A stretch of 64,000 bases of DNA from Haloferax mucosum ATCC BAA-1512 (GTDB lineage: Archaea > Halobacteriota > Halobacteria > Halobacteriales > Haloferacaceae), in assembly GCF_000337815.1 (NCBI RefSeq), contig NZ_AOLN01000018.1, forward strand, positions 248,001-312,000. The letters run 5' to 3'. The position numbers and the translations under genes were made by a program. Position 1 is the stretch's first letter. The number at the start of each line of letters is the position of its first letter. Positions 39,517 through 46,869 of the stretch are shown piece by piece. The notes under the pieces are model-generated. The model worked only from the letters and a program-made list of their open reading frames with translations, was not told the origin of the DNA and made no database searches.

Positions 39517-40818
39517 TTAGCTGGTCGGTGGCGGGTCGATTCGACGCTCGGTATCGACGCGGAGACACGCCGCCGACGTTCCCGCGCTGGTCGATTCCAG
39601 TTCGGGATGGTCGCGCTCGCAGACGCTCGAAAACGAGTCGTTGAGCGTGCGACGCGCCTCGTCGTGTTCGCCCTCGACGAGCGCCGAAATCGCGTCGGAG
39701 AGAACCGTCTCCGCGTTCGGGTCCGAAAGCGTCTGCGGAACGTCGAACTCCCGGCGTAATTCGCGTGCAACCGCCGCGTCGGGAACCTCCTCGGGGGTCG
39801 GTGCTTCGCCCTCGGCGACGAGGAACTCACGAATGTCGCTGGCATCGACGCCACGTTCGACGCGGAGGCGCAAGTCGAGCACGTGTCGCCACTCCGCCTG
39901 TTCGAGGTCGAACGCCTCGGGTTGGATGACCGCCGGACAGCGCGTGTGGAACCGACAGCCTGACGGCGGGTTCGACGGACTCGGCACGTCGCCGGAGAGT
40001 TCGACGCCCTCGTTTCGGCGCGAGGGGTCGGGCGTCGGAATCGACGACAACAGCGCCTTCGTGTACGGATGCTTGGGGTCCGAAAAGAGAGTCTCCGTGT
40101 CGGCGACCTCGACGATTTCACCGAGGTACATCACGGCGACGCGGTCGCAGACCTCGCGGACGACACCGAGGTCGTGGCTGATAAAGACGATAGAGAGACC
40201 GAACTCGGTCTGAAGGTCGCGCATCAGCGAGATAATCTCGGCCTGAATGGAGACGTCGAGCGCCGAGACGGGTTCGTCGGCGACGACGAGGTCCGGGTTG
40301 AGGACTAACGCCCGCGCGAGCGCGATTCGTTGTTTTTGCCCGCCGGAGAACTCGTGCGGATAGCGGTCGTACGCGGCCGCCGACAGTCCGACGCGTTCGA
40401 GGAGGTCCTCTACGATGCGTCGGCGTCGCGCTCGGTCGCGCATGCCGTGGATGGCGAGCGGTTCGGCGACCGATTCGCCGACGCTCATCCGCGGGTCGAA
40501 ACTCGAAGACGGGTCCTGAAACATCATCTGTGCCCGGCGGCGGAACGCTTTGAGGTCCGCGTCACCGTGCTCGACGATGTCGTCACCGTCGAACAGTATC
40601 TGTCCGTCTGTCGGCTCTTCGAGCCTGAGCAACGACGTTGCGGCCGTGGACTTCCCACAGCCGGATTCGCCGACAAGTCCGAGCGTCTCGCCGGGCGCGA
40701 CGTCGAAGGAGATGCCATCGACCGCTTTGACGCGGCCGACTTCCTTTTTCAGGATGCCTTTGGTAATCGGATAGTGTTTCTTCAGGTTTCGAACCGAGAG
40801 CAGTGGGTCGGCACTCAT
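39517..40818 (-). CDS. dppF: Peptide ABC transporter ATP-binding protein (OppF/DppF type)
   Basis: A 433-residue ATPase: Walker A GLVGESGCGKSTAA, signature EFSGGQKQRIALAR, Walker B VADEPVSALDVS. The oligopeptide-family C-terminal region has NPPSGCRFHTRCP, which resembles the [4Fe-4S]/Cys-containing tail of OppD/F. Beyond ~350 is an extra ~85-residue acidic helical tail absent from most DppF. It is the last gene of the operon. Its ATG overlaps the dppD stop. Confidence 0.9.
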   Translation of the reverse strand: MSADPLLSVRNLKKHYPITKGILKKEVGRVKAVDGISFDVAPGETLGLVGESGCGKSTAATSLLRLEEPTDGQILFDGDDIVEHGDADLKAFRRRAQMMFQDPSSSFDPRMSVGESVAEPLAIHGMRDRARRRRIVEDLLERVGLSAAAYDRYPHEFSGGQKQRIALARALVLNPDLVVADEPVSALDVSIQAEIISLMRDLQTEFGLSIVFISHDLGVVREVCDRVAVMYLGEIVEVADTETLFSDPKHPYTKALLSSIPTPDPSRRNEGVELSGDVPSPSNPPSGCRFHTRCPAVIQPEAFDLEQAEWRHVLDLRLRVERGVDASDIREFLVAEGEAPTPEEVPDAAVARELRREFDVPQTLSDPNAETVLSDAISALVEGEHDEARRTLNDSFSSVCERDHPELESTSAGTSAACLRVDTERRIDPPPTS

Positions 40819-41885
40819 CGTGAATCACCGTGAGAGTCGTGAGAATCGTCGCGGCCGCCGTCGGTGGCGCGGGTCTCCGCTTCGCCGTCGCCACGAATGG
40901 CCGACACATCGTAGCCCGGCCCGTAGTAGACACACGCCGCGCGGTGGTCGGATGCCGCTTCGAGCAGTTCCGGGTGGCTTCCACTCCGGCAATCGGCCGT
41001 CGCGTGCGGACATCGCGGATGGAACCGACAGCCTTCGGGCGGCGCGGTTAGGTCGGGAAGCGACCCGCCGATAGGCTCCATCGACCGGCCGATTCCGGGC
41101 AGGCATTCGAGAAGTGACTTGGTGTATGGGTGCGACGGTCGCTCGAACACGTCGTGGACGCTTCCGGTCTCCATCACCTTGCCCGCGTACATGACGACGA
41201 CGCGGTCGGCGACCTCGGCGACGACGCCGAGGTTGTGGGTGACGAAGATGATGCTCATGCCGAACTCGTCTTGGAGGTCTCGCAGGAGGTTGAGAATCTG
41301 TGACTGGATGGTCACGTCGAGCGCCGTCGTCGGTTCGTCGGCGATGAGCAGGTCCGGGTCGGCCGCGAGCGCCATGGCGATGACGACGCGCTGTTTCATG
41401 CCGCCAGAGAACTCGTGGGGGTAGTCGTCGACGCGGTTCGTCGCCTCCGGGATTCCCACGCGGTCGAGGAGGTCGATTGCGCGGTCGCGCGCGGCCGCCT
41501 TCGACACGTCGCTGTGGAGGCGAACTGCCTCGGCGATTTGTGCACCGACGGGATAGACCGGGTTGAGCGCCCCTTGTGGGTCCTGGAAGATGTGTGCGAT
41601 GCGGTCGCCCCGAATCGACTGTAACTGTTTTTCAGACGCGTCGGTGAGGTCGTCACCGTCGAAGCGAACCTCGCCGCCGGCGATTTCGCCGGGCGGCATC
41701 GGGATGAGTTTCGTAATCGACTCGCAGGCGACGGTCTTGCCGGACCCCGACTCACCGACGACACAGACCGTCTCGCCGGGCGCGACGTCGAAGGAGATGC
41801 CGTCAACCGCTCTGACGACTCCCTCGTCGGTGTTGAACTGGACGCGAAGGTCGCGGACGGACAACAGCGGAGCAGTGTCGCTCAT
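40815..41885 (-). CDS. dppD: Peptide ABC transporter ATP-binding protein (OppD/DppD type)
   Basis: A 356-residue ATPase with Walker [11 protein letters not shown], signature [10 protein letters not shown], Walker [12 protein letters not shown] and the oligopeptide C-terminal [18 protein letters not shown] motif, with Cys residues for an Fe-S cluster as in DppD/F. The ATG is inside an ATGA overlap with dppC; the longer reading of this frame upstream is antisense noise. Confidence 0.92.
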
Positions 41886-43054
41886 GCGTCTCCCTCCGAG
41901 CGCGGGTCGAGCGCATCGCGCAGTGCGTCGCCGACGAAGTTGAACGCCAAGACGGTACAGAACAGGAAGACGCCGGGGATAGTCGCAATCCACCACGCGC
42001 TGTCGAGGTCGCCGCGGCCAGACGCGATGACCTGTCCCCACGAGGGCGTCGCGGGGTCCGTCAGGCCGAGGAACGCGAACGTCGCTTCGAACAGGATGAA
42101 CGAGGGAATGAGAAGCGTCGCCGCCGTGATGACCGTGTTCGACACGTTCGGCATGAGATGTTTGCGGATAATCCACCCGTCCGACGCGCCGGCGTTCTCC
42201 GCGGCGCGAATGTACTCTTCTTCCCGGCGCTGGAGCGCCTCGGAACGGACGAGGCGGGCGATACCACCCCATCCGAGGAAGCCGAATATCGTGATGAGTA
42301 AGAACAGACTCGGCTTGAACAGGTACGTCACGATGAGGAACAGGAAGAACGTCGGGAAGGTCTGTTGAATATCGACGTAGCGCATCAACACCTCATCGAC
42401 GAGGTCGCCGAAGTACGCCGCCGACGTGCCGACGACGGTGCCGATGCTGATGACGATAAGCATCGTGATGAGACCGACCTGCATGCTCACGCGCATCCCG
42501 AAGACGACGAGTTTGGCGATGCCTTTCCCCTCGCTCGTCGTTCCGAGCGGGTATTTCCACGTCCCGTGGCACATGCCGTCGGCGACGGCACCGGCGCACG
42601 CCGAGGGCACGCTGGAATCGACGCTGACGAACACGGGCGGTTGGTACGCCGCGATGACGTTCAGTTCGGGTTTGGCGATCAACCACGGACCGACCGTTCC
42701 GACGGTGAACACGACGAGGAGGTAGATGGCGCTCACCACGGCGGCGCGGTTCTTTTTGAATCGCCGCCAGTAGTAGGCGGTCAGCCGCCGGTTTTCGGCC
42801 AGCGGCCACGCCACGAAAAACGCCCCCACGAGGAGTGTCAGGACGAACAGCCAGTCGGTCCCCGAGAGGACAGACCCCTCGGTGAGGAACACGTCGGTCG
42901 TGACGACAAGCGCGTAGATGGCGCTCACGGCGACTAGCAACCCGGTACGGAGCGGAAGGCCAAGACCGCCGAGGTCGTCCCAATCGACATCTTCGAACCG
43001 GTCGGTCGAACCGGCGGCCGTCGTCGAACCGGATGGCGTGTCGGCCGCCATCAT
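41882..43054 (-). CDS. dppC: Peptide ABC transporter permease (DppC type)
   Basis: A 390-residue permease. The first ~100 residues carry two extra helices (VAVSAIYALVVTTDVFL and FVLTLLVGAFFVAWPLA) ahead of the BPD_transp_1 core, where the usual DppC is ~300 residues. The EAA loop, RAAENAGASDGWIIRKHLMPN, contacts the ATPases. It starts in an ATGA overlap with dppB. Confidence 0.9.
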   Translation of the reverse strand: MMAADTPSGSTTAAGSTDRFEDVDWDDLGGLGLPLRTGLLVAVSAIYALVVTTDVFLTEGSVLSGTDWLFVLTLLVGAFFVAWPLAENRRLTAYYWRRFKKNRAAVVSAIYLLVVFTVGTVGPWLIAKPELNVIAAYQPPVFVSVDSSVPSACAGAVADGMCHGTWKYPLGTTSEGKGIAKLVVFGMRVSMQVGLITMLIVISIGTVVGTSAAYFGDLVDEVLMRYVDIQQTFPTFFLFLIVTYLFKPSLFLLITIFGFLGWGGIARLVRSEALQRREEEYIRAAENAGASDGWIIRKHLMPNVSNTVITAATLLIPSFILFEATFAFLGLTDPATPSWGQVIASGRGDLDSAWWIATIPGVFLFCTVLAFNFVGDALRDALDPRSEGDA

Positions 43055-44025
43055 CGACCTCCGTAGTCGATACGCGGGTCCAACACGGTGTAGGCGATGT
43101 CCTGTAGCAGGTTCCCGACGATGGCGATGAACACCGGAATGAGCGTCGTCGCCATGACGAGCGCCGTGTCCTGTTGGACGATAGCTTTGTAGCTCAGCAA
43201 CCCGAGACCGGGTATCTGGAAGACCACCTCCGTGATGTACGCCCCGGCGAACAGCAAGCCGAGGATGTCGGCGACGAGGATGGTCATAAGCGGCACGAGT
43301 GCCGGTCTGAAGATGTGTCGAACGAGGACGCGCCAGTCGTCCGCACCTTTCGCGCGCGCCGTCTTGACGAAGTCGGCGTGGACGTATTCGAGGGCTTCAG
43401 CGCGGGAGTAGCGCATGTTCCCGGCGATAGCCCCCGTCGAAAGGACGATAATCGGTAAGATGAGCTGTTTCGCGTTGGCGAGCGTCCAGACTCCTTTCCC
43501 GGTTTGGTAGTAGCTGGGAAGCCAGCCCAAATCGACTGCGAACACCAGTATGAGCATGATGCCGAACCAGAAATTCGGGATACTGATGCCGAAGAAGGCC
43601 GTGAACGTCCCGAAATAGTCGGTCAGCGTGTACTGGTGTGTCGCCGAGTACAACCCGATGGCGTAGCCCAAGACGATAGAGATGAGCGTCGCCGGCAAGG
43701 CGTACATGAGCGAGTACGGATACGCCTCTGAGATGGCCGTCAACACCGGTTGGTTCCGAGTGTACGACCACCCCCATTCGAGCGTCGCCATGTTCACCAT
43801 GTAGTTCTTGTAGCGGGTCAACATCGGTTCGTCGCGGCCGGTTATCTCGTCGAACGTCTCTTTCGCGTCGTCAACGTTACCGCCCTGTGTGGCGGCCTTG
43901 AACGCGAACGCTGTTTGGCCGTCGCCCGGCGCGACCACGAGCAGTCCGAACGTGAGACTCAAGATGAGATACGTCGCAATCACCGCCCACGCGACGCGGC
44001 GGGAGACGTACCAGAGCATACTCAT
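43051..44025 (-). CDS. dppB: Peptide ABC transporter permease (DppB type)
   Basis: A 324-residue six-helix permease: N-terminal WYVSRRVAWAVIATYLILSL, large extracellular loop with NYMVNMATLEWGWSYTRNQ, and EAA motif KTARAKGADDWRVLVRHIFRP. It lies 16 bases after the binding protein gene. An alternative ATG 6 bases downstream is possible. Confidence 0.92.
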   Translation of the reverse strand: MSMLWYVSRRVAWAVIATYLILSLTFGLLVVAPGDGQTAFAFKAATQGGNVDDAKETFDEITGRDEPMLTRYKNYMVNMATLEWGWSYTRNQPVLTAISEAYPYSLMYALPATLISIVLGYAIGLYSATHQYTLTDYFGTFTAFFGISIPNFWFGIMLILVFAVDLGWLPSYYQTGKGVWTLANAKQLILPIIVLSTGAIAGNMRYSRAEALEYVHADFVKTARAKGADDWRVLVRHIFRPALVPLMTILVADILGLLFAGAYITEVVFQIPGLGLLSYKAIVQQDTALVMATTLIPVFIAIVGNLLQDIAYTVLDPRIDYGGR

Positions 44026-44041: not shown

Positions 44042-45901
44042 TCATTCGAACGAGTAGTCGCCGGACAGGTTGTCGGCGAGCATCTGTTTGGCCTTCGCAG
44101 TGTCGTAGTGCTCGCCGACGCCGGTCTTTTCGACCTTGGTGTCGTCGAACCAGTCGGAGAACGCTGGCTGGTGGGTGTGTGCGACCGAGGCGTATCCGCG
44201 GTCGATGTTCTCGACGATGGTCTTTTTGTTCACACCCATCGAGAGCGCGTGCCGAACCTCGCGGGTGCGCAGTTGGTCCCAGCCGTTTGCACGCTGGTTG
44301 TACGCGAGAATCGAACAGAACGCGTTCGGCGTCTGAATGACCTTCGTGGAGTCGAGGTCCTCGAACTTCTTCGCCTTCGACGACGGGAGCAACAGTTGGT
44401 CGATTTCACCGGTTTCGAACGCCGACAAGCGCGTCGATTGCTCACCGAACACTTGGAACTTGTACTCCTCGAAGTTCGGCGTCTCGTCGTAGCCCGCCAC
44501 GTCGCGCAGGTAGTAGTCTTCGTTTCGTTTCGCCACGAACACCGATTCGCGGTCCCAGCGGTCGAACGTGTACGGACCGAGGTTGCCGGAGTAGGTAATC
44601 TCCTGAATCGCGTTCGACTGGTTGAGCTTGTTGCCGCCGTCTTCCACGTCGCGGTACTGCTCGACGAGACCTTTCGGTAGACACATCGCCCCCCACATGA
44701 TGGGTTTCTTGACGAACGACGGGTCAACCTCGGGAAGTTGGATTTCGAAGCTCAGTTTGCCGGTCTTTTCCACCGGGATGGGTTCGTCGTTGCGGAACCA
44801 ATCTGACTGGTTCACGTCACCGGCCCAGTTGTCTTCTGCTTGGTGGACCTCTTTGATGTAGTACACCCAGTCGTCGGCGGTCATCTGGCCGTAGTCGCCG
44901 CCCCACTGGAGGTTGTCGCGGAGGGTGAACTCGTAATTTTGCTTGTCGTCGGTGTCGATAGACTCGACCCAGAGGTAGACGACCTCGTTGTCGTTGTCGA
45001 ACGTGTACGCTCCGTCGAGAGTGAGCGCGAGACGGTCCGAAGACGACTCGTCGTTGATGCGAATCGGGTTGAGCGTCTTCGCGTCCGTGCCCTCTCCGTA
45101 GCTGTAACCACCTGACATCGAGGCCGAGCCACCGGAATCACCGCGAAAGTACTGCTGGTAGTTGTAGTCGATGTTTTGTCCGGGTTTGATACCCTGCACG
45201 TCTTTCTGGAACCCGTTGAGGTCGACCGAGAACTCGTAGAAGTTCACCGGTTGGTCGTGGCTGAGAACACCAAACACATCGGCGAGGAGTTCCTGTCGTT
45301 TCGCCTCGTCTGTCTGTTTGGACGCCTCATCGAGCATTCCCGCGATGTTCTCGCTCGGGCGGTAGCCGTAGAAGTTAGTCGTCGATTGTTTGCGCTTTTC
45401 CTCGCTCGTCCAGAACGGACGAATCGACGTCGGTGTTCGCGGGTAGGAGTTGAAACCGATACCGAGCATCAGGTCCCACTGTTCCGTGCTCGTCGCCTCG
45501 TCGCGGGGACCGGCGTTGAACGACGACCGCTCTTCGCCACCCTCGGGCGAGTACGTGTTCTGTGCGTACTTTGAGAGCATCGTGTTGAACGGCACGCCGG
45601 TCAACTCGACACCGATTCCCAGCTTTCCGTACTCCTGTTTGATGAACTGGGCGATGGTTTTGGTCGTCTGGCCCCCGGTGGAGTAGACCATGCTGAGCGT
45701 CACCTGTTCGCCGTCGGGACCGAGAAGCGTGCTTCCGAGGTCGCCGCCGTCCGCCGAGTCGGTCCCACCCCCACTTCCGTCGTCACCGGAAGCGTCCTCG
45801 TTGCGTTCGCCGGTGCACCCCGCAAGTCCGGCGAGACCACCTGCACCGAGCGTTTTCAAAAGCGTTCGTCGATTTGGCTGGATAATGTTACCGCGAACCA
45901 T
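44042..45901 (-). CDS. Circularly permuted family-5 peptide-binding lipoprotein
   Basis: A 619-residue substrate-binding protein. NRRTLLKTLGAGGLAGLAGC (10-29) is a twin-arginine lipoprotein signal, so it is folded before export and lipid-anchored. A Gly/Asp/Ser linker follows. The order of the fold is rotated: residues ~60-240 match the C-terminal lobe of OppA/DppA (KLGIGVELTGVPFNTML, then DEASKQTDEAKRQELLAD), while ~265-619 match the N-terminal lobe (YGEGTDAKTLNPI, GPYTFDRW, and the end YDTAKAKQMLAD, which in ordinary proteins leads into the C-lobe). A low-complexity bridge (GDSGGSASMSGG) joins the original ends. It is first in the operon; a TATA box 25 bases upstream indicates a leaderless transcript. 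Confidence 0.9.
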   Translation of the reverse strand: MVRGNIIQPNRRTLLKTLGAGGLAGLAGCTGERNEDASGDDGSGGGTDSADGGDLGSTLLGPDGEQVTLSMVYSTGGQTTKTIAQFIKQEYGKLGIGVELTGVPFNTMLSKYAQNTYSPEGGEERSSFNAGPRDEATSTEQWDLMLGIGFNSYPRTPTSIRPFWTSEEKRKQSTTNFYGYRPSENIAGMLDEASKQTDEAKRQELLADVFGVLSHDQPVNFYEFSVDLNGFQKDVQGIKPGQNIDYNYQQYFRGDSGGSASMSGGYSYGEGTDAKTLNPIRINDESSSDRLALTLDGAYTFDNDNEVVYLWVESIDTDDKQNYEFTLRDNLQWGGDYGQMTADDWVYYIKEVHQAEDNWAGDVNQSDWFRNDEPIPVEKTGKLSFEIQLPEVDPSFVKKPIMWGAMCLPKGLVEQYRDVEDGGNKLNQSNAIQEITYSGNLGPYTFDRWDRESVFVAKRNEDYYLRDVAGYDETPNFEEYKFQVFGEQSTRLSAFETGEIDQLLLPSSKAKKFEDLDSTKVIQTPNAFCSILAYNQRANGWDQLRTREVRHALSMGVNKKTIVENIDRGYASVAHTHQPAFSDWFDDTKVEKTGVGEHYDTAKAKQMLADNLSGDYSFE

Positions 45902-46138: not shown

Positions 46139-46705
46139 TCAGTCGTCGCCGTGTTCGTCAACGATGACGACTTCACCGTCTTCGACGGTCACGTTGATGA
46201 GCGTCTTGACGTGATGGTCCGAATCGTCGAGTTCGGTCGGGCCGGCTTTCTTGATGATGGCGACGGTGTCAACGACATCCGCGCCGATGTGGTCGAGCGC
46301 GTCGAGGACGGCTTTCATCGTGCCGCCGGTCGAAAGCACGTCGTCGAGAACGAGCACGCGGTCGCCCTCGTTGACGTCGTTGATGAACATGTCGCCTTCG
46401 GAGTATCCGGTCTGCTGGTGGAGCGACACCTCGCCGTCGAGTCCATACTCGCGCTTGCGGATGACGACGAGCGGGATGTCGGTCATGAGCGACACTGCGG
46501 TCGAGATGTGGATACCCATGGCCGCAGGCGTGACGATTTTGTCCACGTCTTCGAGGTCCGCCTTGCGGATGATTCTGATGACAATCTCACGAAGGAGTCC
46601 CGGCTTGAGCATCGGGACGCCGTCACTGATGGGATGAACGAAGTACTCGTAGTCTCCTTTTTCGATGATCGGCGCGTCGAGAAGGGACTGCCGCAACTGG
46701 TCCAT
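46139..46705 (-). CDS. hpt: Hypoxanthine/guanine phosphoribosyltransferase
   Basis: A 188-residue PRTase, the archaeal Hpt (adenine/hypoxanthine type). It has [21 protein letters not shown], then [14 protein letters not shown], the PRPP-binding loop, and a lobe with [12 protein letters not shown]. It salvages purine bases with PRPP. TTTTATG on the minus strand (46728-46735) lies ~27 bases upstream of ATG 46705, supporting this start. Confidence 0.92.
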
Positions 46706-46869
46706 GACGCCCGTTTCCCGGGTTAGACATAAAATGTGGCGGTTCGAAGCCTGTCGGACACGGCGACCCACGATGCGCGGTATCGACTCCCGAGGGCGTG
46801 GCTCCCGAAGACGTTCGTGGCCGCGTTGTCACTCGACGCGGTCGGCGTCGTCACTCGAACATAAGAGTC

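Follow-up and report, generated by a model that had tools for sequence, protein, structure and literature searches.

A circularly permuted family-5 solute-binding lipoprotein of Haloferax mucosum and its permuted relatives among haloarchaea

Natural circular permutations are mostly known as old differences that separate distant protein families. A described case among the receptors of ABC importers is Treponema pallidum TpMglB-2 (Tp0684), a permuted type I sugar-binding protein with a solved structure, for which the designation 'Type Ic' was proposed (PMC4990184). For the family-5 solute-binding proteins (SBP_bac_5, PF00496), our literature search, for which most subscription journals were outside reach, returned no paper on permuted members. 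Here we describe such a member in Haloferax mucosum ATCC BAA-1512, in which Pfam detected PF00496 and a TAT signal only, and which therefore does not belong to the type I sugar-binding family of TpMglB-2. As far as is known, the new element is the apparent recurrence of the permutation at close range: since a single locus holds either chain order in close relatives, it becomes possible to read and test which DNA steps were taken, how the breakpoint was chosen and what the change costs in function.

Gene, operon and order of the body blocks

The window, meaning the whole 64,000-nucleotide stretch of DNA analysed, carries on its minus strand an open reading frame of 619 codons without an internal stop. 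The gene, its parts and its neighbors are as follows.

44042..45901, minus strand: circularly permuted family-5 solute-binding lipoprotein, 619 amino acids, whole gene (reading frame and translation; PF00496, E = 9.9e-45)
45815..45901, minus strand: Tat lipoprotein leader, residues 1-29 (RRTLLKTLGAGGLAGLAGC; twin arginine and lipobox cysteine in the sequence)
45716..45814, minus strand: Asp/Gly/Ser-rich spacer, residues 30-62 (pLDDT <50 for residues 1-52)
45146..45715, minus strand: body block 2, residues 63-252, equivalent to the C-terminal part of a normal family-5 protein (PF00496 287-365)
45107..45145, minus strand: joint of the old C-end and old N-end, residues 253-265 (sequence; old termini of normal sisters)
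44045..45106, minus strand: body block 1, residues 266-619, equivalent to the N-terminal part of a normal family-5 protein (PF00496 3-275)
43051..44025, minus strand: DppB/OppB-type permease (PF00528; NF045470, Opp2B-like)
41882..43054, minus strand: DppC/OppC-type permease (PF00528 and OppC_N, PF12911)
40815..41885, minus strand: DppD-type ATPase, start MSDTAPLL (ATPase motifs; homologues at the same place in related operons)
39517..40818, minus strand: DppF-type ATPase (ABC_tran and oligo_HPY; DppF-like models)
46139..46771, minus strand: hypoxanthine/guanine phosphoribosyltransferase, upstream (NF040646 HPT_Archaea, 247 bits, cut-off 200; synteny)

Matches to PF00496 fell in reversed order, with profile positions 287-365 in the N-terminal half of the protein and 3-275 in the C-terminal half, in place of the canonical N-to-C order of the family-5 fold. 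After rotation of the mature protein, these merged into a single match spanning 3-365 of the 368 profile positions, and the same rotation gave a single match (13-344) for a protein of clade B, one of the permuted groups described below. A profile built from 29 permuted proteins matched 5isu in three pieces (query 307-612 to chain 59-333, 70-112 to 341-383, and 153-231 to 393-471), which were collinear only once rotated, and rotation likewise brought the entire body back into line with unpermuted homologues. The SBP_bac_5 score was 153.7 bits against a cut-off of 32.4, and coverage of the profile was essentially complete after rotation. Because its block order is reversed, the protein ranks as a permuted variant of this known family, neither a standard member of it nor a member of a new family. 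Scored unrotated, the protein stayed below the NCBIfam equivalog cut-offs for Opp4A (59/650 bits), NikA (51/393-600), OppA (26/947) and DppA (25/1005). Four other family-5 genes were found by a whole-genome profile scan of the same genome, each of them matching in one stretch across nearly the whole profile.

Block 2 contains the remaining C-lobe and the last N-lobe segment, and block 1 the N-lobe and the opening part of the C-lobe, ending ..AKQMLADNLSGDYSFE; compared with the corresponding C- and N-terminal parts of the normal-order sister L017, they show 48% and 57% identity, respectively. They are connected by a 13-residue Gly/Ser linker, RGDSGGSASMSGG (residues 253-265), as anticipated by the first-pass annotation, which had described a Ser/Gly-rich joint of the former termini in a circularly permuted protein. 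The profile order, the rotation, the sister proteins, the exchange of blocks in DNA and the predicted structure agree on this point, and confirm that the body of the window protein is a circular permutation of a family-5 solute-binding protein. The leader scored 17.2 bits with Pfam TAT_signal, below the cut-off of 22.7, and among permuted homologues its twin arginine is invariant and C29 nearly invariant. The same annotation had placed a leader at both ends, which does not hold, as the Tat/lipobox leader occurs only at the new N-terminus and is absent from the old N-end.

Dpp/Opp-type permeases and ATPases adjoin the gene, the four reading frames at 39517-44025 on the minus strand corresponding to the DppB-C-D-F operon already proposed, and this operon is kept at most loci, permuted and normal alike. 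Values of dN/dS among Haloferax species were 0.02-0.06 for block 2 and 0.08-0.16 for block 1, and the block order is common to many species, including named, separately sequenced ones. The conserved operon and low dN/dS bear out the earlier view of a used, unbroken gene; given operon retention and purifying selection, the window protein is probably the working flytrap receptor of a DppBCDF importer. In DppA of E. coli, a scoop motif of the permease inserts between the lobes (PMC12136057), and since such insertion would not depend on chain order, docking should be possible for the permutant. The permuted chain would then fold into the usual two-lobed flytrap, capture ligand and dock on DppBC.

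A gene matching HPT_Archaea is the immediate upstream neighbor of the transporter in several genera, and in some others it lies downstream in convergent orientation; loci with this neighbor include both permuted (L037-L040, L096, L151, L152) and normal-order (L051-L056, L098) examples. This neighborhood hints at a substrate that may be purine-related rather than a dipeptide, and our literature search returned no paper linking a transporter of this kind to purine salvage. No DppBCDF genes were recognised within 14 kb of permuted loci L045, L048 and L050 (clade B) or L094 and L095 (g91), whose products are possibly orphan receptors sharing another importer.

Predicted structure, cut site and tether

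The AlphaFold2 model of the window protein, computed with 29 permuted sequences as input, had a pTM of 0.75 and a pLDDT of 77, with the N-terminal block mostly confident, and the normal-order sister L017, used as a control, had a pTM of 0.78. Secondary structure of the rotated protein agreed with that of L017 at 89.8% of 547 aligned positions, compared with a mean of 35% and a maximum of 46% in a cyclic-shift null. Foldseek, whose alignment follows chain order, covered ∼570 columns for the control, with a TMt of 0.87 to 1xoc, but ∼370 for the permutant, with a TMt of 0.53 to both 5isu and 1xoc, and the permutant's matches (5isu, 1xoc and 1dpe) each covered part of the fold. This contrast between models is expected if the fold is the same and the chain rewired, and as modelled the protein is a single compact unit with the two-lobed family-5 fold. 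The first-pass annotation would have abandoned its reading for a model in ordinary strand order, or for an N-terminal half unrelated to the C-lobe by HMM; the predicted strand order is ordinary only after rotation, and the N-terminal half does match the C-lobe. At residues 144-165, the NDPDAYKSLYL of 5isu is replaced by NTYPRTP..xFW in permuted homologues, normal haloarchaeal relatives being similar, and this haloarchaeal subfamily may contact its ligand differently from peptide-binding relatives.

In alignments, the window protein ends ..HYDTAKAKQMLADNLSGDYSFE and its body begins DLGSTLLGPDGEQVTLSMVY, where the normal sister L074 runs ..SYDPAGARDLLEANLSSDYGYDGDTLVGPDGEQVTLTLVY uninterrupted. 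In the C-lobe, the new ends fall where the AKxML helix leads to the VTLxxVY strand. Judged by the aligned range of 1dpe, the cut corresponds to about residue 338 of the mature DppA of E. coli, a position that we take to fall within the C-lobe of the DppA structure. The chain passes through the rest of the C-lobe, the last N-lobe segment, RGDSGGSASMSGG, the N-lobe and the first C-lobe part. The suggestion that the C-lobe comes first and the N-lobe last was thus right about the reversed order but not about the boundary, as the cut is within the C-lobe, and the chain has the later C-lobe part at its start and the N-lobe with the first C-lobe part at its end. In the surveyed orthologues, three clades are cut at this same loop, which makes it a candidate site for engineered permuted biosensors. 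The cut in clade B lies ∼35 residues upstream, with an end at ..WSEFYPGDE* and a start at DFPQFGVGDLYGQEVARTLAR.., compared with an unbroken ..FSEFYPPEDDIPKFGVGDSYGSEVARGLAE.. in a normal g14 protein.

Because the cut is within the C-lobe, the lipid anchor enters at the C-lobe, and the predicted move of the anchor to the other lobe is upheld by a leader that now stands ahead of the C-lobe part. The median spacer from the lipobox cysteine to the core is 37 aa in permuted proteins and 36 aa in normal ones; with flexible spacers of about equal length, the new tether point may matter little, and the change may be near-neutral for transport.

Distribution and origins among haloarchaea

Searches were made of the family and the order, and extracted reading frames were scored for block order, a relative being counted as permuted if it gave a collinear full-length match to the window protein. 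Many permuted and many normal-order relatives were obtained, and in a phylum-level sample there were no further matches beyond the order at E <= 1e-50. When the window protein was searched against genome contigs, matches came solely from Haloferax (H. elongans, H. marinum, H. profundi and H. larsenii), and the permuted order was present in 7 of the 15 genomes of the genus sampled, the window's own included. Permuted clade A1 includes Haloferax, g19, g85 and g97; clade A2 includes g18, g65, g91, g63, g66, g71, g82, g86 and g102; clade B comes from many g14 genomes and clade D from one g55 genome. Within genus g14, 19 genomes had the permuted order, 15 the normal order, and none had both. A named sister of normal order, from Halorussus halophilus (L160), was found in the plasmid collection, where it and other matches are annotated merely as ABC transporter substrate-binding protein.

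Three normal-order proteins of the Halorussus group (L069, L070 and L071) have a Tat leader that lacks the lipobox cysteine (e.g., ..GVGSVGAQ), and so are apparently not lipid-anchored. In genome G065, two normal-order copies (C1:722407-723513 and 730022-731152) lie on the same strand ∼7.6 kb apart, about one operon length, which suggests that the whole transporter operon was tandemly duplicated.

A tree was constructed from rotated cores with the break region left out, and the careful tree was kept unrooted because the outgroups, L001 and L002, were too distant for a reliable root. The rotated-core tree contained four order changes, all four forced by well-supported branches, and the range across 200 bootstrap trees was 4 to 4. 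Trees of the separate blocks had 4 and 5 changes, the 5 belonging to the block-2-only tree, in which A2 was not one clade. AU tests rejected A1+A2 as one clade (p = 0.00044) and also B+D (p = 0.0128, a value somewhat weakened because the groups were named after a first tree), and clades D and B both have normal-order relatives in their own genus. Within sampling limits, these sequence trees show the permuted proteins as four clades among normal-order relatives. We therefore consider it very likely that permutation of haloarchaeal family-5 proteins is recurrent, with at least four independent events in one taxonomic order, three of them at the same loop, and with both orders orthologous at one locus within a genus. 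Recurrence in other haloarchaea was not foreseen in the first-pass annotation.

A single ancient permutation, with the normal-order relatives inside the group as reversions or tree misplacements, appears improbable to us. It would account for the loop and the similar starting motif (..GDxLVGPDGEQV) shared by three of the four clades, and for the position of A1 near A2 in the tree (87/97), but the motif is present in unpermuted sisters too (SSDYGYDGDTLVGPDGEQV in L074), the breakpoint of clade B differs, and reversion would need the exact ancestral joint to be restored. In addition to the AU rejections of A1+A2 and B+D, clade D groups with a normal-order protein of its own genus at 100/99, their blocks being 77/71% identical. 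We give very little credence to a chimeric or decaying gene, in which half-genes of different paralogues were fused by chance and the N-terminal 190 residues lie outside the same fold. Although a single-sequence PDB search matched chiefly the C-terminal half, separate block trees put the permuted groups in like positions, both blocks are under purifying selection, the N-terminal block is confidently folded in the AlphaFold model, and the order is kept across many species, some from named independent assemblies.

Exchange of blocks in DNA and comparison with known systems

At the DNA level, clade D locus L089 and normal-order L141 of the same genus are 80.7% identical in block 2, 81.1% in block 1 and 82.7% in the downstream dpp genes, with the blocks exchanged and the downstream part unmoved. 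Between clade B locus L041 and normal g14 locus L144, alignment extends over the leader, the two blocks and 5.4 kb of downstream sequence, the exchange being confined to the blocks. Similarly, the window and L098 are collinear in the upstream hpt and the downstream dppBCDF, with the blocks in between exchanged. The clade D joint retains a piece resembling the old lipoprotein spacer (GLPEDIEEPPAVEGSYN; compare GIPEETDELPSVSGSYD, the N-end of L112). The DNA swaps and the spacer remnant fit a route of tandem duplication and loss in which the leader was retained: in each clade the body would have been duplicated in tandem and in frame behind the existing leader, after which block 1 would have lost its first copy and block 2 its last. 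No tandem, 1.5-copy or split-gene intermediate was present among the extracted reading frames, all of which had exactly one copy of each block, and the duplication route is thus one that we infer. One candidate split intermediate, L129 (G013), was rejected, being a normal-order copy with an in-frame stop and hence a decaying gene; a transposase-like reading frame lies just upstream of its body.

Tandem duplication with loss is one recognised route to circular permutation, and others are recognised too (PMC3320104). The lack of a tandem intermediate among the reading frames scored would agree with fission and fusion, or with cut-and-paste of blocks, but we regard these routes as unlikely here, since the clade B leader is unmoved at the DNA level, split-gene relatives were looked for and none found, and the spacer-like piece in the clade D joint is predicted by head-to-tail fusion of two copies. 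Duplication and loss, the preferred route, is compatible with the permutation being adaptive, a possibility that we view as somewhat doubtful, in which moving the tether from the N-lobe to the C-lobe alters receptor docking or opening, and hence recurs. Four origins, three of them at the same loop, would be consistent with such an advantage, and a like idea was raised for tethered TpMglB-2 (PMC4990184), but the nearly equal spacers (medians 37 and 36 aa) and the fact that orthologues of either order work with the same operon in one genus fit near-neutrality as well. Overall, we are confident in a joint reading in which the gene encodes the binding lipoprotein of a DppBCDF-type importer, with a permuted body, belonging to one of four clades that would have originated by duplication and loss.

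If recurrent permutation is true, haloarchaeal family-5 proteins constitute a natural laboratory for fold rewiring, and a rare natural record of proteins rewired with their shape retained. Caution is appropriate in profile-based annotation of such proteins, which detects mainly one half.

Like OppA, DppA and NikA (PF00496), the window protein has a whole-domain profile match once rotated, the predicted fold, an operon of the OppB/C/D/F type and an N-terminal export/lipid leader; unlike them, it has the C-terminal block first, new termini in the C-lobe and fused old termini. It resembles TpMglB-2 in being a tethered ABC-importer receptor whose chain is circularly permuted in nature. However, TpMglB-2 belongs to Type I/cluster B and is permuted in the N-lobe, with the strand order of the C-lobe intact (PMC4990184), whereas the window protein belongs to family 5, is cut in the C-lobe and very likely represents one of several origins. 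The haloarchaeal sisters L017, L074, L112, L123 and L160 have homologous blocks (about 45-57% identity for those of L017, L074 and the Halorussus protein), a DppBCDF operon, a similar Tat leader and often the hpt neighbor, but, in contrast to the window protein, they are unpermuted.
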